From contig PKRI01000005.1 in assembly GCA_017577485.1 (NCBI GenBank), positions 1 through 64,000 of the forward strand: a DNA stretch of 64,000 nt, read 5' to 3'. Positions within the stretch are counted from its first letter, which is position 1, and each line of letters begins with the position of its first letter. The DNA comes from Bacillota bacterium (GTDB lineage Bacteria; Bacillota; Sulfobacillia; Thermaerobacterales; RSA17). Both the position numbers and the translations under genes were made by a program. Below are positions 33,436-43,488 of this stretch, one piece after another. The notes beneath the pieces are model-generated. The model saw only the letters and a list, made by a program, of their open reading frames with translations. It was not told the origin of the DNA and did no database searches.

Positions 33436-33717
33436 ATGGACGCGCGCGCTGTGGTGCGGCTGCTGCGGCGGCTGAACCTGGCGGCAGCCCTGGCCCTGGC
33501 GGCGGTGGCCGTCCTGCGCCTGCTTCACCAGGGCGCCGTGGTGCCCATGCTGCTGCTGGCCGGCCTGCTGATCGTGGGCCCCGTGGAGGACTGGCTCAAG
33601 CGGCGGGTAGTCAGCCGCCCCGTGGACCCGGGCCCGCCGGCGGCCCAGGTGGTCGACCAGGCCACCAGCCTGGCGTTGATCCTGATCCTGGTGGCCGCGG
33701 CCCTGCTGGCCCGCTAG
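33436..33717 (+). CDS. Small membrane protein, 93 aa, unknown
   Basis: Three hydrophobic stretches: about residues 13-28 (LNLAAALALAAVAVL), 35-49 (VVPMLLLAGLLIVGP) and 75-92 (TSLALILILVAAALLA), with basic segments RLLRRL and KRRVV between. ATG at 33436 follows GGGAGGTGGGAGTCC, an excellent ribosome site. No recognised domain. Its last 107 bp overlap, in antisense, the 3' end of pxpC, which is unusual; at least the 3' tail of pxpC here is low-complexity. Confidence 0.65.
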   Translation: MDARAVVRLLRRLNLAAALALAAVAVLRLLHQGAVVPMLLLAGLLIVGPVEDWLKRRVVSRPVDPGPPAAQVVDQATSLALILILVAAALLAR

Positions 33718-34915
33718 CCCCCGCCGGCACCATGGTCATCAGCACCTGGCCGGCGGCCACCCGCTCACCGTCGGCGACCCGCAGGTTCCCGACGGTGCCG
33801 GCGAACCCGGCCCGCACATCGAAGAACGTCTGCATTACCTCCACGACGCCCACCACGGTTCCCGGCTCCACCGGGTCGCCAGGCCTCACGAAGGGCGCCG
33901 CGCCGCGGTAAGGGCGGCTGTAGAAAGTGCCGTCCAGCGGCGAGCGGACGGCGGCATCCCGCTCCACCACCACCTCGCCGCTCATCAGCTGCCGCCACCA
34001 GTCCCGGTAGACGGCCACCGCCTCGGCGGGGTCGATGGGCGCGAAGCGGATGGTGTCGCCCGGCCGGGCCTGGCCCAGCAGCGCCACGTCGGGGGTGATC
34101 ACCACGCCCAGCTTGGGATAGCCGCCCACGGTGGCCCGGCCCGCCAGCAGCACGATGGGCTGGCCGTCGGGCGGGATCTGGACGGCGCCCAGGGCCTGGC
34201 CTTCCGAAAGGATCTCCCCCGCCGCCCGGGGCACGGCGGGGCCCGACAGGCGCAGCCCGGTGCGGTCCGACGCCGGCGTCACCGTGTACTCGCTGCCGAA
34301 GAACGTTTCCAGCGCTCCGGCGCTGAAGTGGTCGCGGTGGGGTCCCACCACCACCCGCGCCACGAAGCGGTCCGGCACGAAGCGCCAGCGGGCCTGGCGC
34401 ACCACGGTGTCCGGGCCCCGGAAGCCCCCTGCGCCCACCGCCAGGCGGTCGCCGGCCCGCAGCGGCCGGCCCTGCCCGTCGGGCCCGCCCAGGCGGCCCA
34501 CCAGATCGGTGGAGCGACTGCCCAGCACCGGGGGCACGTCGATGCCCCCGGCCACGCACACGTACGCGCGGCAGCCCCGGGTCCCGCCCCGGAAGCGCAG
34601 CACCTGACCCGCCCGGACCGGCACCGCCGTGCCCGGGGGCAGCGGGTGCCGGTCCAGGACCGCCCCCAGGTCGGCGCCGGTGACGGCCACCCAGGCGTCC
34701 ACGTCGAAGCGCAGCGCGGGTCCTACCAGCGTGACCTCAAGGCCCGCGGCGTCGATGGGGTTGCCCACCAGCCGGTTGCCCAGGATCAGGGCGGCGGGGT
34801 CGGCGGCGCCGGCGGGCGAGACACCCAGGTCCTGGCGCCCGTGGCGGCCCAGGTCCTGAACGGTGGTCTGCAGGCCCGGCTCCAGCACCTGGATGCCCGG
34901 GGTTCCCGGGGTCAC
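33611..34915 (-). CDS. pxpC: 5-oxoprolinase subunit C (biotin-dependent carboxyltransferase family) fused to a lysine-less biotinyl-like domain
   Basis: 434 aa. Residues ~5-300 are the KipA/PxpC domain: GLQTTVQDLGRHGRQDLGVS, GNRLVGNP, AYVCVAGGIDVPPVLGS, DRTGLRLSGP and GGYPKLGVVITPD. Residues ~325-400 are a biotinyl/lipoyl sandwich (RSPLDGTFYSRP...GTVVGVVEVMQTFFDV...GTVGNLRVADGERV), but the biotin-lysine position (EAMKM in carriers) is Q362. PxpABC hydrolyses 5-oxoproline to glutamate with ATP. GTG at 34915 overlaps the pxpB stop. The last 35 residues are Pro/Gly-rich and lie antisense to the small membrane gene. Confidence 0.88.
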   Translation of the reverse strand: MTPGTPGIQVLEPGLQTTVQDLGRHGRQDLGVSPAGAADPAALILGNRLVGNPIDAAGLEVTLVGPALRFDVDAWVAVTGADLGAVLDRHPLPPGTAVPVRAGQVLRFRGGTRGCRAYVCVAGGIDVPPVLGSRSTDLVGRLGGPDGQGRPLRAGDRLAVGAGGFRGPDTVVRQARWRFVPDRFVARVVVGPHRDHFSAGALETFFGSEYTVTPASDRTGLRLSGPAVPRAAGEILSEGQALGAVQIPPDGQPIVLLAGRATVGGYPKLGVVITPDVALLGQARPGDTIRFAPIDPAEAVAVYRDWWRQLMSGEVVVERDAAVRSPLDGTFYSRPYRGAAPFVRPGDPVEPGTVVGVVEVMQTFFDVRAGFAGTVGNLRVADGERVAAGQVLMTMVPAGASGPAGPRPPGSGSTPGWWPGRPPGPPAGPGPRGG

Positions 34916-35793
34916 CGGGACTCCTCCTCCCGCCCCCGGCCCGCCGCGTCCCCGGCGGCCGCCCCGCCGGGCGCGGCGTCACCGGTCGCCGCATCCCCGG
35001 CTGCGTCATGCACCGCCCGGCCGCCGGATCCGACGGGTTCGGGCCGGAGTTGGTACGCGCCGGCCGCCGCGGCCGCCTCGATCTCCCGGTAGACGTCGGG
35101 GCTCACCGGCTCGAAGCGCACGTAATCCCCGGCGGCCAGCAGCGCCGGCGGGTCGCGGTCGGGGTGGAACAGGGCCACCGGCGTACGGCCGATCAGGTTC
35201 CAGCCGCCGGGGCTGTCCACGGGGTAGATGCCGGTCTGCCGGCCGGCGATGCCCACCGAGCCGGCCGGCACCCGGGTTCGGGGCGTAACCCGCCGCGGCA
35301 CCGCCAGGCGCGGCGACATCCCGCCCAGGAAGGGGAAACCCGGCGAGAAGCCGGTGAAGTAAACGAAATAGTCGGTGCCGGCGTGCAGCCGCACCACCTG
35401 GTCCGGCGTGAGCCCGGTGTGGCGGGCCACGACCTCCAGGTCGGGGCCGTACCGGCCGCCGTAGACCACGGGGATCCGGAAGCGCCGGGCCGGCGGCTCC
35501 TGGCCGCCGGCGTCCCCGGCCAGCAGGCGCCGGCAGTACCGGGCCACCTGCCGGTGGTCGGTCTGGAGCGGGTCGAAGATCACGTACACCGATGCGTAGG
35601 CCGGCACCGCCTCGCGGATGCCGCGCCGCCGGGCCTCCGGCTGCCGCAGCGCCTGGGCCAGGCGCCGCACCCGCCGGCTCACCTCGGGATCGATGCGCTG
35701 CGGGAAGTAGACGTAGACGCCCTGGTCGCCGGCCGGCGCCACGCGGACGCCGCCGGGGTCCTCCCCCGCCCGGCCCGACCGGCCCGCCGTCAT
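34912..35793 (-). CDS. pxpB: 5-oxoprolinase subunit B (KipI/PxpB family)
   Basis: 293 aa. The carboxyltransferase domain 1 family signature is plain: VYFPQRIDPEVSRRV, PAYASVYVIFDPL, FVYFTGFSPGFPFLGG, PRVRVPAGSVGIAGRQTGIY-like block and DSPGGWNLIGRTP. The last ~50 residues are an Ala/Gly/Asp-rich tail. ATG at 35793 overlaps the pxpA stop (ATGA), and the 3' end overlaps the pxpC start, giving a coupled pxpA-pxpB-pxpC set. PxpB and PxpC form the ATP-using half of prokaryotic 5-oxoprolinase. Confidence 0.92.
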   Translation of the reverse strand: MTAGRSGRAGEDPGGVRVAPAGDQGVYVYFPQRIDPEVSRRVRRLAQALRQPEARRRGIREAVPAYASVYVIFDPLQTDHRQVARYCRRLLAGDAGGQEPPARRFRIPVVYGGRYGPDLEVVARHTGLTPDQVVRLHAGTDYFVYFTGFSPGFPFLGGMSPRLAVPRRVTPRTRVPAGSVGIAGRQTGIYPVDSPGGWNLIGRTPVALFHPDRDPPALLAAGDYVRFEPVSPDVYREIEAAAAAGAYQLRPEPVGSGGRAVHDAAGDAATGDAAPGGAAAGDAAGRGREEESR

Positions 35794-36566
35794 CCCCGGA
35801 CCCGGCCCATGGGCGCCACCCGGACCCCCGCTTCCTCCAGGCGGCGCCGCACGGCCCGCGCCAGGGCCACGGCCTCGGGGTTGTCGCCGTGGATGCACAC
35901 GGTGTGGACGGGGTGCGGGATGACGGTGCCGTCGACGGCCTCCACCACCCCTTCGGTGACCATGCGGACCACCCGCCGGGCGGCCAGGCCTGCGTCGGCG
36001 ATGACGGCGTCGGGGCGGGAGCGGTCCACCAGCGTGCCGTCGGGATTGTAGTTGCGGTCGGCAAAACCCTCGTAGGCCACCGGCAGGCCGGCCCGTTCTC
36101 CCGCCAGGGCCAGTTCCGAGCCCTTCGGGGCCACCAGGATCAGGTCCCGGTCGAAGGCGGCCACGGCCTGGGCCACGGCCTCGGCCAGCGCCCGGTCCCG
36201 GAGGGCCATGTTGTAGAGGGCTCCGTGGGGCTTGACGTGCTGCAGCGGCACCCCGAGGGCCCGGCAGAAGGCGAACACCGCCCCCACCTGGTACAGGACG
36301 TCGGTGCGCACCTCGGCCGCCGAGGCGGCCAGCGGCCTCCGGCCGAAGCCCACCAGATCCGGGAAGCCCACGTGGGCCCCGATGCCCACGCCCCGCTCGG
36401 CGGCGCGGGTCACCGTGCGCTCCATGACCCGGGGGTCGCCGGCGTGGAAGCCGCAGGCGATGTTGGCCGAGGTGATGAGTTCCAGCATCTCGTCGTCCCG
36501 GCCCAGCCCGTAGGCGCCGAAACTCTCGCCCATGTCGCAGTTGAGGTCGACCCAACGCTCCGCCAT
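35790..36566 (-). CDS. pxpA: 5-oxoprolinase subunit A (LamB/YcsF family)
   Basis: 258 aa, the standard length. It starts WVDLNCDMGESFGAYGLGRD, then SANIACGFHAGDP, GIGAHVGFPDLVGFGRR, VKPHGALYN and YEGFADRNYNPDGTLV, all diagnostic for the family. With PxpB and PxpC it opens 5-oxoproline (pyroglutamate), a spontaneous damage product of glutamine. ATG at 36566 follows GGGGTGAGGG. First gene of the pxp set; the MFS gene upstream is 61 bp away on the same strand. Confidence 0.95.
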   Translation of the reverse strand: MAERWVDLNCDMGESFGAYGLGRDDEMLELITSANIACGFHAGDPRVMERTVTRAAERGVGIGAHVGFPDLVGFGRRPLAASAAEVRTDVLYQVGAVFAFCRALGVPLQHVKPHGALYNMALRDRALAEAVAQAVAAFDRDLILVAPKGSELALAGERAGLPVAYEGFADRNYNPDGTLVDRSRPDAVIADAGLAARRVVRMVTEGVVEAVDGTVIPHPVHTVCIHGDNPEAVALARAVRRRLEEAGVRVAPMGRVRG

Positions 36567-36627
36567 GGCGATCCCTCACCCCGGCTCTACGACGGCGGCG
36601 CTGCCGGACCCTGGCGCCCGGGGGTCA

Positions 36628-37965: not shown

Positions 37966-38021
37966 ACCCGCTCGGGAATCCTCAGGCCGACCCGCTCACG
38001 AGCCCTCAGGTTACCCGCTCC
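37966..38021. repeat. Short imperfect tandem repeat, period 23-24 bp
   Basis: ACCCGCTCGGGAATCCTCAG plus GCCG at 37966-37989, then ACCCGCTCACGAGCCCTCAG plus GTT at 37990-38012, then ACCCGCTCC. It spans the 3' end of tlyA into the gap before the MFS gene. Confidence 0.5.
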
Positions 38022-38863
38022 CAGCCTTCCCGGACGGCACGGCGCGCCTCCTCCTCCAGCGCCGGCCCCTCAAGGCCGCCGGCGGCGTCCAGGGACCACC
38101 ACTGGAAGAATTCCAGGTTGCCGGCGCCGCCCCGCACCGGCGACCAGGTCATGGCCCGCACGGCAAAGCCCTGGGACCGGGCCTCCCGGGCCAGGCGCAC
38201 CATCACCTCCAGGTGGACCCCGGCGTCGCGGACCACGCCGCCCTTGCCCACCCGCTCAGGACCGGCCTCGAACTGGGGCTTGACCAGCGACACCACGTCG
38301 CCGGGCGGCACCAGCACCCGCGCCAGGGCGGGCAGGATCTTGGCCACCGAGATGAAGCTGACGTCCACCACGGCCAGGTCCGGCCGCTCCGGGAACATCT
38401 CCGGCGCCAGGTGACGGGCGTTGGTGCGGTCCATGACCGTCACGCGGGGATCGCTGCGGAGGCGCCAGGCCAGCTGGCCGTAGCCCACGTCCACGGCGTA
38501 AACACGGCGGGCGCCGCGCTGCAGCAGCACGTCGGTGAAACCGCCCGTGGACGCCCCCACGTCCACCGCCACCCGCCCCGCCGCGTCGATGCCGAACACG
38601 TCCAGCGCGTGGGCCAGCTTGAGGCCGCCGCGGCTGGCGTAGGGCACCGGGTCGCCGCGCACCTCCAGGTGGGCGCCGGCGGCCACCATCTCGCCGGGCT
38701 TGGAGGCAGGGCGACCGTCCACGTACACATGCCCGGCCAGCACCGCCGCCTGGGCCCGGGCCCGCGACGGGAACAGCCCCCGCTCCACCAGCAGCACATC
38801 CAGGCGCCGGCGGTGGGAACGCGGCGCCGGCGACTCCGGCGGGCCGCCCCGGGACCCGTCCAT
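38006..38863 (-). CDS. tlyA: TlyA-family rRNA (cytidine-2'-O)-methyltransferase
   Basis: 285 aa. Residues ~20-80 are an S4 RNA-binding domain (RLDVLLVERGLFPSRARAQ), and ~85-275 an FtsJ-type SAM methyltransferase: VDVGASTGGFTDVLLQRGA is the SAM loop, DVSFISV and LVKPQFE the catalytic region. Methylates ribosomal RNA ribose. It ends the sporulation/isoprenoid/OLE block, 3 bp after oapA, so the two are cotranscribed. The extra ~18 N-terminal residues are Pro/Arg-rich. nadK, argR and recN, which often follow tlyA in Bacillota, are absent here. Confidence 0.92.
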   Translation of the reverse strand: MDGSRGGPPESPAPRSHRRRLDVLLVERGLFPSRARAQAAVLAGHVYVDGRPASKPGEMVAAGAHLEVRGDPVPYASRGGLKLAHALDVFGIDAAGRVAVDVGASTGGFTDVLLQRGARRVYAVDVGYGQLAWRLRSDPRVTVMDRTNARHLAPEMFPERPDLAVVDVSFISVAKILPALARVLVPPGDVVSLVKPQFEAGPERVGKGGVVRDAGVHLEVMVRLAREARSQGFAVRAMTWSPVRGGAGNLEFFQWWSLDAAGGLEGPALEEEARRAVREGWERVT

Positions 38864-38866
38864 GGC

Positions 38867-39466
38867 TCAGTGGGCGTTGCGCGCCGGCCGCCGCGACCGG
38901 CGCACCTGCAGCCGCACCAGGCCGGCCTTCTCCAGGATGTGAAGCACCCGGGCCGCCGCGTAGACGATGTTGGTGGACTGGTTCAGGGCGAAGCCCTTGC
39001 CGGCGGCTTTGCCGCCCACCGTCAGCGCCGCCACCAGTCCCACCATCAGCACCGACATGAGCGTCTCGTCCAGCCCGGGCCGCAGCGCCAGGACCCGCAC
39101 CACGATGGCGGCGCCGGCGGCACCGCTCAAGGTACCCGCCACGTCGCCCACCACGTCGTTGCAGAACGACACCACCGCGTCGGCGTTGCGGACGATCCAG
39201 ATGGCCTGGCGGGCGCCGGGCCGGTCGGCCGCCGCCATGGCGTGGAAGGGCTTCTCGTCGGCCGCCGCCGCCGCCACGCCCACGATGTCGAAGGCGATGC
39301 CCACCAGGATGATCACCAGCAGCGTCAGGACCGCCGGGAACAGGCCCAGGGTTTCCGTGGCCCGGCCCGAGGGAAAGGCGAAGGCGACGGCCACAAAAAA
39401 GGTCAGCACGCCGATGGTTACGGCGCGCCGCCAATCCACGTTGGACTTGCTGTTGGAGCGCTTCAT
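38867..39466 (-). CDS. oapA: OLE-associated membrane protein OapA
   Basis: 199 aa with about four membrane segments: residues ~15-30, 42-65, 105-125 and 135-150. FDIVGVAAAAADEKPFHAMA and FCNDVVGDVAGTLSGAAGAAIV resemble the transmembrane part of CNNM/DUF21 magnesium-transport proteins, a likeness reported for OapA. Ends with a basic tail (RLQVRRSRRPAR), as expected for an RNA-binding membrane protein. It follows directly behind the OLE RNA gene and precedes tlyA, the same order as in other OLE-bearing Bacillota. ATG at 39466 follows GGAAGGG. OapA binds OLE RNA and carries it to the membrane. Confidence 0.8.
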   Translation of the reverse strand: MKRSNSKSNVDWRRAVTIGVLTFFVAVAFAFPSGRATETLGLFPAVLTLLVIILVGIAFDIVGVAAAAADEKPFHAMAAADRPGARQAIWIVRNADAVVSFCNDVVGDVAGTLSGAAGAAIVVRVLALRPGLDETLMSVLMVGLVAALTVGGKAAGKGFALNQSTNIVYAAARVLHILEKAGLVRLQVRRSRRPARNAH

Positions 39467-39495
39467 TCAGGCCCTTCCAGCGTGACGACCCATTG

Positions 39496-40179
39496 AAAAA
39501 AGGATGCAGGTGGTGCGCCTGCCGGGTAGACGCTGTGGCTTAGGTCTAGCAGGCTTTCCCGCGCGGTCACCGGGCGTTGCCGACCCGGCGGTTTCCCTTT
39601 CAGACCGCGCCCCTCCCGTCGCCGTTCCGGTCCCGCCGGCCGGAGCCGGCGTTCCCGGTACTTAGAGGGGGCTAGATTACCACTTAGCACACACTTTAAT
39701 CCCCGGCAGACGACCCGTTGCGGGACAGCCTAGAGGTTTTCCCCGGCCGGCTCACCATTCCCTAGCCCGTTTTGCAGGACGGGTTTCGGCCCAAACGCGC
39801 CTTCCGCGGGCCCTGCGGTCGGCGCGCTTCACGGGTCCATCCGCCACGCCCCACTCAGGGCAGGCTACGCTGCACACAGTCATCCCGCGTGCAGGTTCAT
39901 ACCCCAAGCCATAGCCTCGGGTCCGCGGCCGGCGGCCGGACGCCGCCGTGACCGCGGCCGTCGGCTACGCACTTGGGCCTCCGCGAGGGTAGGGTCAACG
40001 CCTGCATGCCTTTGCAGATCGCCCCACCCTCTTAACTCCCAGCACCGACCCCCGACTGGGCGTCAGCGGCCGGCACCAGGAACTTCATCGATGTGCCCGA
40101 CGGCGGATTTTTAGGCCCGCCTTCAGGAAGGCGGCCGGACTAGGATACTGCCACCACCTGCCGTCAAACCCGGTTGTCA
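39496..40179 (-). ncRNA. ole: OLE RNA (ornate, large, extremophilic RNA)
   Basis: About 690 bp without a plausible gene between ispA and the OapA-like gene, on the same strand. A consensus TATAAT (40191-40186) sits just after the ispA stop, and the transcript would end at a GCAGG/CCTGC hairpin and a run of six U (39501-39496) immediately before oapA. The interior is rich in paired G/C segments and has A-rich unpaired stretches such as GGGGAAAACC, GCAAAACGGGC and GAUUAAAGUG on the RNA strand, typical of a structured RNA. OLE RNA is known from exactly this place (xseB-ispA-ole-oapA). Function in other species: a membrane RNP tied to magnesium, alcohol and energy stress. Ends are approximate. 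Confidence 0.82.
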
Positions 40180-40185
40180 GTGTCC

Positions 40186-40191
40186 ATTATA
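40186..40191 (-). promoter_or_regulatory. -10 element ahead of OLE RNA
   Basis: Perfect TATAAT in CGTGTATAATGG on the minus strand, 45 bp past the ispA stop. No good -35 at 16-18 bp is seen, so OLE may also depend on read-through from ispA. Confidence 0.5.
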
Positions 40192-40235: not shown

Positions 40236-41156
40236 TCAGCCGCTGCGGCTGACGGCGAAAAACGCCAGGTCGCGCAGGAAGCCGGCCCGGGCGCCGAAAG
40301 GTTCCAGTTCCGCCGCCGCCCGCTGCGCCGCCTCCACCGCCAGGCGCCGCGCCGTCTCCACGCCGTACAGGCTGGCGAAGGTGGTCTTGCCGCGGCGCTC
40401 ATCGCTGCCGGCGGGTCGGCCGGTGGCCGCCTCGTCGCCCACCACGTCCAGGATGTCGTCGGTGATCTGGAAAGCCAGGCCGAATTCGTCGGCAAAACGG
40501 GAGAGCCGCTCCACGTCGGCCGGTCCGGCGCCGGCGGCGATGGCGCCGATCCGGGCGCAGGCCCGGAACAGCGCCCCCGTCTTGTGGCGGTGGATGCGCT
40601 CCAGCTCCCGGCCGTCGACGGCGGCACCCTCGGCGGCCAGATCGGCCACCTGCCCGGCGATGAGCCCGGCGGTGCCGGCGGCGGTACCCAGCTCGAACGC
40701 GATGCGCAGGGCAACGGCGGGCGTCAGCGGGCCGTCCGGGTCGGCCAGGACGGTGAAGGCCAGGGTCAGCAGGGCGTCGCCCGCCAGGATGGCGGTGGCC
40801 TCATCGTAGGCCACGTGCACCGTCGGCCGGCCGCGCCGCATGTCGTCGTCGTCCATGGCCGGCAGGTCGTCGTGGACCAGCGAGTACGTGTGCACCAGTT
40901 CCACGGCGCAGGCCGCCGGCAGCGCCGCCTCGACGCTGCCCCCGGCCAGCTCGCAGGCGGCCAGCGTCAGCACCGGCCGCAGCCGCTTGCCGCCCGAAAA
41001 CACCGCGTAGCGCATGGCCTCGTGGATGGGCTCGGGCCAGCGGGACGCCGCCGGCAGCAGCCGCTCCAGGCCGTCCTCCACCCGCCGCCGGTAAGCCTCG
41101 TAGCGCGCCTGGAACGTCTCGCTCAGGTCAAGCCGGGGAATCCTGGGCTCGCTCAT
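40236..41156 (-). CDS. ispA: Short-chain polyprenyl (farnesyl/geranyl) diphosphate synthase
   Basis: 306 aa. First aspartate-rich motif [14 protein letters not shown] (D96, D97, D102) with the two-residue insertion typical of bacterial FPP synthases, GGKRLRPVL for IPP binding, and second motif [11 protein letters not shown]. Condenses IPP with DMAPP/GPP in the cytoplasm. ATG at 41156, behind GAGGTGAGCG, overlaps xseB by 29 bp. Part of the nusB-folD-xseA-xseB-ispA-ole-oapA series; dxs, often next in related genomes, is missing. Confidence 0.94.
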
Positions 41157-41412
41157 CGCTCACCTCGAACTCGGGCGCGGCGGCCAGGATGACCTGGCCG
41201 TGCTGCTCCACCAGGAGTTCGATCTTGCGCTCGGCCTCGTCCAGGCGCTGGGAACAGAACCGGGCCAGGCCGATGCCCTCCTCGAACAGGGCCAGCGCCT
41301 GCTCCAGGCTCAGATCCTCGCGCTCCAGGCGGTCCACGATCTTTTCCAGCGCCGCCAGCGCCTGCTCGAAGTCAGGCGCCTGCCCGGCGGCGTTCATGGC
41401 TCCCGCGTCCAT
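41128..41412 (-). CDS. xseB: Exodeoxyribonuclease VII small subunit
   Basis: 94 aa. The XseB core [34 protein letters not shown] is fully recognisable, followed by [18 protein letters not shown]. Forms a coiled helical hairpin that binds XseA. ATG at 41412 or the in-frame ATG at 41397; the start overlaps the xseA end by about 40 bp, so the subunits are coupled. Confidence 0.93.
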
Positions 41413-42649
41413 CGCCCGCCTCCCTCACCCCGGGCAGCGGCCTCTGCACGACCCCCGCCACCCTGCAGTCGATGATCCCGTCGGCCACCCACAGGTCCAG
41501 CGCGTCCCCGGCCGAAACCGCCGCCACCGACTTCACCACCGCCCCGTCCGTCCGCCGGTGGGCGATGCTGTAGCCGCGGCCCAGCACCGCCAGCGGGCTC
41601 AGGGCGTCCAGGCGCCCGGCGGCGCCGGCCAGGCGTTCCCGCCGCCGTTCGATGCCGCGGATCACGGCGGCCTGCGCGCGGCGCACCAGATCGTCCAGCC
41701 GCTGGCGCTCCTGATACACCCGGTCGAAGGGCCGGCGGAAGACCCGCGACGACGTGATCCGCCGCCAGCGCTCACGGTTCAGGCGCCGCCGGTGGTGCAG
41801 CGCGCCCACCAGACGGCTGGCCAGGCCCGCCACCGTCCCGGCCAGTTCCGCCCGGCTGGGGACCACCAGTTCCGCGGCCGCCGAGGGCGTCGGCGCCCGC
41901 ACGTCGGCGACGAAGTCCGCAATGGTGAAGTCGGTCTCGTGGCCCACCGCCGACACCACCGGCACCGCCGAGGCGGCAATGGCCCGGGCCACGCCTTCGT
42001 CGTTGAAAGCCCACAGATCCTCCAGGGAACCGCCGCCGCGGCCCACGATGATGACGTCTACGCGCCCGTGCTGGTTGAGCAGTTCAATGGCGCGGATCAC
42101 CTGGGGCGGCGCCTCGTCGCCCTGGACCAGCACCGGCGCCACCACCAGCGTGATGTTGGGGAAGCGGCGGCGGGCCACCCGGATGATGTCGCGCAGGGCG
42201 GCGCCGGTGGGCGACGTCACGATGCCCACGCGGCGCGGCAGCCGCGGCAGCGGCCGCTTGCGGGCCGGGTCGAAGAGTCCCTCGGCTTCCAGGCGCGCCT
42301 TCAACTGCTCGAAGGCCACGTGCAGCGCGCCCACGCCCCGGGGCTCCATCACCTGCACGTAAAGCTGGTACTGGCCGTCGCGCTCGTAGACGCTGACCTG
42401 CCCGCGGGCGATGACCTCCATGCCGTTCTCGGGCACAAAGCGCAGCCGCATGTTGGCGCTGCGGAACATGACGCAGCGGATCTGGGCGCGGTCATCCTTG
42501 AGCGTGAAGTACATGTGGCCCGAGGTGTGGTGCTTGAAGTTGGAGATCTCGCCCTGCACCCACACGTCCCGCAGGCCGGGGTCGGACTCCAGCAGGCCCT
42601 TCACATACCGGGTGAGTTCGTGGACGGTGAGGATCCTTGCGTGATCCAT
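41372..42649 (-). CDS. xseA: Exodeoxyribonuclease VII large subunit
   Basis: 425 aa. N-terminal OB-fold (LTRYVKGLLESDPGLRDVWVQGEISN, KHHTSGHMYFTLKD), catalytic domain with VGIVTSPTGAALRDI, IIVGRGGGSLEDLWAFND and SAVGHETDFTIADFVAD, then coiled coil and C-terminal GRGYSIAHR segment. Degrades single-stranded DNA with XseB. The tail after VQRPLP is Arg/Gly-rich and overlaps xseB. ATG at 42649 follows GAGGCGG; the start overlaps folD by 49 bp. Confidence 0.95.
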   Translation of the reverse strand: MDHARILTVHELTRYVKGLLESDPGLRDVWVQGEISNFKHHTSGHMYFTLKDDRAQIRCVMFRSANMRLRFVPENGMEVIARGQVSVYERDGQYQLYVQVMEPRGVGALHVAFEQLKARLEAEGLFDPARKRPLPRLPRRVGIVTSPTGAALRDIIRVARRRFPNITLVVAPVLVQGDEAPPQVIRAIELLNQHGRVDVIIVGRGGGSLEDLWAFNDEGVARAIAASAVPVVSAVGHETDFTIADFVADVRAPTPSAAAELVVPSRAELAGTVAGLASRLVGALHHRRRLNRERWRRITSSRVFRRPFDRVYQERQRLDDLVRRAQAAVIRGIERRRERLAGAAGRLDALSPLAVLGRGYSIAHRRTDGAVVKSVAAVSAGDALDLWVADGIIDCRVAGVVQRPLPGVREAGDGRGSHERRRAGA

Positions 42650-43488
42650 CGCGCCGCCTCGCAGGTGTTGTGCAGCAGCATGGCCACCGTCATGGGACCG
42701 ACCCCGCCCGGCACCGGGGTGATCCACCCGGCCACGTCCCGCACCGCCTCGAAGTCCACGTCGCCCACCAGGCGCCCGCCCGGCAGGCGATTGATGCCCA
42801 CGTCGATGACGGCGGCGCCGGGTTTGACGTGCTGGGGACCGATGAGCCCCGGCCGCCCCACGGCCACCACCAGCACGTCGGCCTGGCGGGTGAACGACGC
42901 CAGGTCCGGGGTCTTCGAATGGCAGATGGTGACGGTGGCGTCGTGGGCCAGAAGCAGCGCAGCCATGGGCCGGCCGACGATGGGCGAGCGGCCCACCACC
43001 ACCGCGTGCCGTCCCGCCACCGGGATGTCGTAGGCTTCCAGCAGCCGCAGGATACCCAGCGGCGTGCAGGGCACGAAGCGCGGCCGGCCCTCCAGCAGGC
43101 GCCCGGCGTTGACCGGATGGAAGCCGTCCACGTCCTTGATGGGGGCGATGGCCTCGATCAACTGGCCGTAGTCCAGCCCGGACGGGACCGGCCACTGCAG
43201 CAGGATGCCGTGGACGTCGGGGTCGCTGTTCAACTCGCGGAGCTTGGCCTCCACCGCATCCTGGCGGGCGTCGGCGGGCAGGTGGTGCAGTTCGGCCCGC
43301 AGGCCCGCGCGCTCGCACTCCCGCATCTTGGCGCGGATGTAGACCTGGGACGCCGGGTCGTCGCCCACCAGGACCACGGCCAGTCCCGGGGTGATGCCGG
43401 TGGACGAGCGGAAGTCGGCCACCCGGGCGGCCACCTCCTGGCGGACGCGGTCGGCCAGCGCCCGGCCGTCAAGGATCTGGGCGGCCAT
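42601..43488 (-). CDS. folD: Bifunctional methylenetetrahydrofolate dehydrogenase/cyclohydrolase
   Basis: 295 aa. Active-site Tyr/Lys in ASQVYIRAKMRECERAG, PSGLD block, KDVDGFHPVNAG, PCTPLGILRLLE, the Rossmann VVVGRSPIVGRPMAALL and closing TPVPGGVGPMTVAML. Interconverts methylene- and formyl-tetrahydrofolate with NADP. ATG at 43488, behind AGGAG, overlaps nusB by 20 bp. The tail after NTCEAA runs over the xseA start. Confidence 0.96.
   Translation of the reverse strand: MAAQILDGRALADRVRQEVAARVADFRSSTGITPGLAVVLVGDDPASQVYIRAKMRECERAGLRAELHHLPADARQDAVEAKLRELNSDPDVHGILLQWPVPSGLDYGQLIEAIAPIKDVDGFHPVNAGRLLEGRPRFVPCTPLGILRLLEAYDIPVAGRHAVVVGRSPIVGRPMAALLLAHDATVTICHSKTPDLASFTRQADVLVVAVGRPGLIGPQHVKPGAAVIDVGINRLPGGRLVGDVDFEAVRDVAGWITPVPGGVGPMTVAMLLHNTCEAARWITQGSSPSTNSPGM

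Follow-up and report, generated by a model that had tools for sequence, protein, structure and literature searches.

A full-length OLE RNA gene and its partner gene oapA in a high-G+C genome of the Bacillota

The window analyzed here, a 64,000-nucleotide stretch from a member of the Thermaerobacterales (Bacillota), carries on its minus strand the gene order xseA-xseB-ispA-ole-oapA-tlyA (Table 1). The element designated ole was matched by cmscan to the Rfam OLE model, RF01071, with a score of 397.2 bits (E 4e-114; gathering score, 50 bits), and this is the sole RF01071 match in the genome (2.09 Mb, 71 contigs). OLE is a large structured bacterial RNA, among the largest conserved, whose biochemical task is, to our knowledge, not known. 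A preliminary description based on the DNA letters had proposed an OLE RNP locus at 38867-40191, a range that comprises oapA, OLE and a possible -10 box, and gene-free, structured DNA between ispA and a membrane-protein gene. The first proposal is supported by the covariance-model search it had called for, which returned a match over the full model, together with OapA homology. The second was confirmed by folding: the minus-strand minimum energy, -378.6 kcal/mol, is better than those of all 20 dinucleotide shuffles, which average -333.35 (z -8.77). All of these elements lie on the minus strand. The same description spoke of a spore former; family matches to Spo0A and SpoIVA in the genome make sporulation a supported prediction.

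Table 1. Genes and RNA elements of the OLE locus, in window coordinates
Feature	Position	Strand	Evidence or remark
xseA	41372..43318	minus	PF02601, E 3e-100
xseB	41128..41412	minus	PF02609, E 4.1e-21
ispA (farnesyl diphosphate synthase)	40236..41156	minus	NF045485, 338.4 bits (cut-off 275)
TATAAT, possible OLE -10 box	40186..40191	minus	sequence; -35 poor
OLE RNA gene	39494..40172	minus	full length, 679 nt; cmscan RF01071 1-616
P1, 5' strand	40154..40161	minus	covariation; partner 39506-39513
P2, 5' strand	40140..40150	minus	partner 39726-39733
P3/P3.1, 5' strand	40126..40138	minus	strong covariation; partner 39747-39761
L4 A-run, AAAAA	40108..40112	minus	published A-A dimer contact (PMC12286853, accessible text)
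L5 loop, GCCCA	40057..40061	minus	published kissing contact with L6 loop 40007-40012
P7	39903..39977	minus	75 nt; longest of 228, tied with same-family L168
L9.3 palindrome, GGGCCC	39808..39813	minus	published kissing-loop dimer contact
OLE 495 (39678) and 503 (39670)	39670..39678	minus	candidate coupled non-Watson-Crick positions
P12	39611..39669	minus	59 nt (usual 21); extra sequence 5' of GNRA tetraloop GCGA (39619-39622)
P13 hairpin, published OapB-binding region	39561..39610	minus	consensus set beside window; name mapping our own
P1, 3' strand	39506..39513	minus	end doubles as 3' arm of hairpin 39522-39506
oapA	38867..39466	minus	199 aa, CNNM-like membrane protein; 27 bases after OLE match
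tlyA (rRNA methyltransferase)	38006..38863	minus	TIGR00478, 257.4 bits (cut-off 185.8)

For comparison we collected 258 OLE matches, window included, of which 243 were full length with enough flanking DNA and 228 remained after exact duplicates were dropped. Sixty-two of the 228 were fetched through oapA; the others came from a set of related genomes and from the higher-scoring part of a phylum search, and the set therefore favors well-conserved copies. Aligned with MAFFT on sequence only, it amounts to an effective number of 175 sequences at 85% identity. The window RNA keeps 155 of the 156 near-invariant columns, defined as those at least 97% conserved in our own 228 sequences, window included, and forms standard pairs at 140 of 154 Rfam pairs. 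It is of the full-length type (P7, 75 nt; P8, 25 nt; P9, 97 nt), having neither the shortened P7, P8 and P9 of OLE variant 1 nor the missing P7 and P8 of variant 2. Set beside the full-length type as presented in the accessible text of Fernando and Breaker 2024 (PMC11332333), the window copy is alike in its full model length, conserved columns and P7-P9, and likewise in its dimer loops, adjoining oapA and the presence of OapB and OapC in the genome; it differs in the lengths of P7 and P12. We found no point against its identity as OLE, and a match to the sR60 snoRNA model inside the gene (19.8 bits; gathering score, 50) was set aside as chance. We thus count the window copy as a sound addition to an established RNA class, well preserved and full length, with partner genes in the same genome. 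By itself a single further copy adds little, because a sample of 398 genomes from the phylum contains OLE in 284.

The structure line that cmscan gives for RF01071 is without the pairs of P1, P2 and P3, though these are among the most strongly covarying of our set. Three long-range stems stand out, at OLE positions 12-19/660-667, 23-33/440-447 and 35-47/412-426 (position p corresponds to window base 40173 - p). We take these to be P1, P2 and P3/P3.1, names used in the accessible text of PMC12265935; the mapping is our own. A parsimony count on the tree returned 82 pairs at 10^-5, comprising 58 Rfam pairs, 18 in P1-P3, 2 nearby and 4 others. Pairing of the two OLE ends also appears in the minimum-energy fold. 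Within P2, covariation is seen at 29/444 and 24/446, and several other pairs are nearly invariant. P3/P3.1 of the window has 14 possible pairs; 43/416 is mismatched as aligned, and an alternative fold places a bulged U there. The P3 arms vary by 1-2 nt (the 5' arm is 15-16 nt in 223 of 228 sequences and 14 in the window). The notion that P3 acts as a membrane span of fixed length was dropped as non-discriminating, since the length of P1 is fixed too.

The loops described as dimer contacts in the cryo-EM structure of OLE (accessible text of PMC12286853) are all recognizable. L4 reads CUAAAAAU in 215 of the 228 RNAs and L5 reads GCCCA in 213, and the core tetranucleotide of L9.3 is palindromic in 190 of the 208 sequences with four letters there. 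As a control for loop-loop contacts we used positions 116 (L5) and 162 (L6): whenever 116 changes, eight times in all, 162 changes with it. The L6 loop of the window is AAGGCA, which makes 116/162 an A.A contact; 43 of the 228 sequences have this state, and 120 have A-U. P13 is the region bound by OapB according to the accessible text of PMC12054373 and PMC11332333.

What distinguishes this copy is the size of P7 and P12. P12 measures 21 nt in 198 of 228 sequences and exceeds 24 nt in four: the window, L168 (51 nt), L184 (82 nt) and L087 (49 nt). Apart from the window's own, the relatives set has a single genome of this family, the source of L168; in the four genomes of the same order that carry OLE, P12 is 21 nt and P7 is 44-47 nt. 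Enlargement of P7 and P12 is thus specific to a lineage and common to the window and L168. A general correlation between the two helices was rejected, as only the two family members among the four long-P12 sequences have a long P7. L184, an OLE RNA of 74.1% G+C, belongs to a different family of the class; P12 has therefore probably been enlarged more than once.

P12 has a GNRA tetraloop in 216 of the 228 RNAs, and all but one (197 of 198) of those with a P12 of usual length have it. In the window, GCGA could still form with two closing pairs, though the minimum-energy fold of the isolated helix is without that small hairpin. The insertions of L184 and L087 also lie on the 5' side with the GNRA kept; the aligned P12 columns of L168 are not GNRA, and a GCGA occurs nearby. 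Local folding, scored against 200 shuffles, gave z values for P7 of -5.14 (window) and -4.43 (L168). P12 folds better than shuffles in the window (-2.76), L184 (-2.18) and L087 (-2.31), and no better than shuffles in L168 (+1.23). The enlarged copies show that P7 and P12 tolerate large additions, so that both are places for tags or labels, and that the GNRA loop of P12 hardly varies. An analogy is offered by rRNA expansion segments, which are likewise lineage-specific arms on peripheral helices of a conserved RNA; they belong to a different RNA, and the arms added to OLE have no known function.

Both ends of the gene had been remarked on previously, for a perfect TATAAT at the start and for a hairpin with U6 at the finish, and both are there. 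The TATAAT has a poor upstream partner: the site scores 8 of 12 matches in a scan of 75 nt upstream, and a stricter scan found no promoter-like site at the window OLE. Across the set, a site with at least 10 of 12 matches lies in the 75 bases before P1 at 118 of 227 loci, compared with 7 of 227 single-base shuffles (one of the 228 is without enough upstream DNA), and many OLE genes of the set seem to have a promoter of their own. At the window OLE, the stricter scan returned 4 terminator-like sites against a shuffle mean of 0.9. At the 3' end of the window gene, a weak 5-bp stem (39522-39506) is followed by four bases and a T6 run (39501-39496). Because its 3' arm is the 3' strand of P1, this hairpin may, besides terminating transcription, close the RNA or take part in its processing.

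The membrane-protein gene had been taken for oapA with CNNM-like character, and both parts of that assignment hold. By tblastn we confirmed relatives in 464 stretches of public genomes, of which the best 80, Moorella and Halalkalibacter among them, were kept as OapA loci; identity to 18 other OapA proteins is 40-52%. At 0.001, the 199-aa product matches nothing in Pfam or NCBIfam. Its Pfam CNNM match falls below the cut-off (16.4 vs 28.4 bits), and 14 of 19 OapA proteins match CNNM at E <=0.01. In the PDB, the OapA profile matched no sequence and the window protein alone gave one match, at E 0.28. A Foldseek search with the AlphaFold2 model (pLDDT 85.2) put MtCorB, a CNNM protein from an archaeon, in the first four places (probability 0.96-1.00, E 0.096-0.65); the best has E 0.096 at probability 1.00, and the query TM score for 7M1T is 0.45-0.56. 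OapA thus resembles the transmembrane domain of CNNM proteins (MpfA/CorB) in its sub-cut-off CNNM match and MtCorB-like predicted fold, and differs in that no CBS or CorC domain was matched, the Pfam score is below cut-off and the Foldseek E value reaches only 0.096. On the strength of the model, the window OapA is predicted to have a CNNM-like transmembrane fold. No CNNM protein above cut-off was found in its own genome, where the sole match is OapA itself, below the cut-off; OLE hosts are reported to be typically without a CNNM protein (PMC11332333).

We surveyed the association of OLE with oapA in both directions. In the relatives set, 55 of the 61 genomes, own genome counted, carry an OLE match; this survey and that of the phylum used stricter filters, by which weak matches are lost. 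Of 257 OLE loci (window excluded), 253 have an oapA detectable by tblastn, always on the same strand, at a median gap of 51 bases; 249 have it within -50 to 700 bases. As 75 of the 257 had been fetched through oapA, the unbiased count is 178 of 182 loci, including two copies of the window's own locus. At five of the 80 OapA loci, the DNA covered, some of it short, has no OLE at the gathering score. In 12 genomes picked for contrast in OLE presence, an OapA profile search found oapA in 6 of 6 with OLE and in 0 of 6 without. At four loci, oapA and OLE share a strand but lie more than 700 bases apart or in reversed order, with gaps of -1296 (L051), -1288 (L062), 2351 (L073) and 2416 (L091). All three relatives-set genomes of one family (f8) have neither OLE nor an OapA match, a candidate lineage loss to be weighed against the occurrence of MpfA-type CNNM transporters. 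We found no literature joining OLE RNA and Thermaerobacter.

Two further partners are encoded elsewhere in the genome. OapB (107 aa), between map (M24 peptidase) and infA, has no Pfam match at 0.01; its residues 9-61 match PDB 7K9B, "OLE-associated protein B," at E 4.6e-8. OapC, an L7Ae-like protein of the YbxF type (match to YbxF 4LCK, E 1.7e-17), is encoded between rpoC and rpsL, as in Bacillus subtilis. Ribosomal protein bS21 (PF01165), considered as a further OLE partner, was not found in the genome. It is present in 51 of 61 relatives-set genomes, including the other one of the same family, so its absence is likely an assembly gap, and we dropped it as a lineage trait. P6 of Halalkalibacterium halodurans OLE is reported to carry an anti-Shine-Dalgarno mimic, CCUCCU. 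This motif is absent from P6 of the window (40031-39985); with CCUCCU in only 9 of 228 OLE RNAs (CCUCC in 49), a perfect mimic is the exception in this sample.

Taken together, the locus almost certainly encodes a full-length OLE RNA and its membrane partner OapA. The identity of the RNA, its structural elements and its partner genes are shown by these analyses; transcription, dimerization, membrane placement and stress function we infer. The RNA would be read leftward, as part of a transcript with the genes upstream or from the weak promoter of OLE itself. The RNA would fold into the published two-domain structure and most likely dimerize via L4, L5/L6 and L9.3. OapA would hold it at the membrane, with OapC (YbxF) at the kink turn and OapB (YbzG) at P13 completing the particle. 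By analogy with H. halodurans, the particle would help the cell to withstand stress from Mg2+, cold, alcohol or carbon source.

The locus might instead be a remnant, an OLE gene beside oapA that has decayed or lost its activity: a strong promoter is missing, P7 and P12 carry large insertions, and bS21 was not found in the genome. Decay is nevertheless hard to reconcile with the nearly complete set of conserved columns and Rfam pairs, with an OapA that is open and conserved, or with the presence of OapB and OapC; moreover, the insertion positions are shared with a same-family genome, though P12 of L168 folds no better than shuffles. We regard decay as very improbable. The position of OLE directly upstream of oapA, in the same direction, would equally suit a leader or riboswitch-like RNA that controls oapA alone, yet the match is to OLE over its full length. 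In addition, four of the 257 loci outside the window have dxs after OLE with no oapA detectable downstream, and all four genomes carry oapA elsewhere; the RNA is thus not tied to a leader position before oapA, and we give the leader reading next to no credence.

The locus also bears on base composition. The G+C content is 72.4% for the window and 67.35% for its OLE RNA. The genome had been described as very high in G+C, even extreme, and the first holds for the window; the RNA is not extreme for its class, as 8 of the 227 other OLE RNAs are higher (top, 74.1%). Over the 228 copies, with flanks from 24% to 80% G+C, the slope of G+C against flank is 0.53 for paired and 0.285 for unpaired columns. 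The hope that a high-G+C copy might show which loops must stay A/U-rich was realized in part: in 44 copies with flanks above 62% G+C, A/U is kept in at least 95% at 58 of 220 unpaired columns. These include UAU 26-28, A 61-65, AU 85-86, AA 88-89, AAA 387-389, AAA 433-435, AUU 473-475, AAA 616-618 and UAA 631-633. High-G+C and enlarged copies thus separate positions kept for function from drift in composition.

A tree-aware scan for coupled columns found the established helices again, together with one dimer contact from the literature. The first scan left 4 pairs unexplained and the second 7, with 495/503 in both lists; of the seven, we take 116/162 to be the published L5/L6 contact. The letters at 495/503 are AC in 144 sequences, AA in 37, GU in 24, AU in 12, GG in 8, CA in 2 and UG in 1. 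All 15 of 15 parsimony origins of G495 occurred where 503 is U or G, a state of 6.2% of nodes without G495. On a tree built with both columns, 14 changes are shared against 2.0 expected (10^-7.6; Bonferroni, 10^-6.58). On a tree without them, the shared changes number 12 or 10, depending on how ties are resolved. Column 569, a more changeable one, does equally well (12 and 11). The observed values are reached in 0 and 5 of 20,000 permutations, for which survival after correction for 190,653 pairs cannot be shown. With five columns of the region removed from the tree, 13 of 17 changes at 495 are shared with 503, matched by 0 of 248 columns of similar rate.

These comparisons are suggestive of a candidate non-Watson-Crick coupling. 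The two positions lie on the same strand, at opposite ends of a helix of 6 bp (497-502/623-628), so that contact inside a single molecule is improbable. It is possible, though in our view less likely than not, that they form a conserved non-Watson-Crick contact, which may join the two 3' domains of a dimer or mark two sites that a single protein reads. The pair is a modest structural lead, a contact to test in the 3' domain, which is not resolved in the published structures as given in the accessible text of PMC12286853 and PMC12265935. It goes unmentioned in the accessible text of these two papers and of PMC9723947, PMC12054373, PMC12191101 and PMC11332333; an R-scape analysis of OLE reported in the accessible part of PMC12286853 may already include it.

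Other couplings fared less well. Pyrimidine 494 tends to match 482 (UU in 124 and CC in 61 of 228; window 39679 and 39691, with 637 at 39536), and U494 also goes with U482-G637 (27 sequences). As a base triple, 494.(482-637) stays weak, with 9 changes common to 482 and 494 against a null mean of 3.2, equaled by 2 of 193 columns of similar rate. A pair between domains 1 and 2, 92/476, was rejected: its mutual information is high, yet it has 3 shared changes against 0.67 expected. Elsewhere in the window, beyond tlyA and MFS genes, positions 33611-36579 hold carboxyltransferase genes of the 5-oxoprolinase type (CT_A_B with a biotin-lipoyl domain, and CT_C_D).
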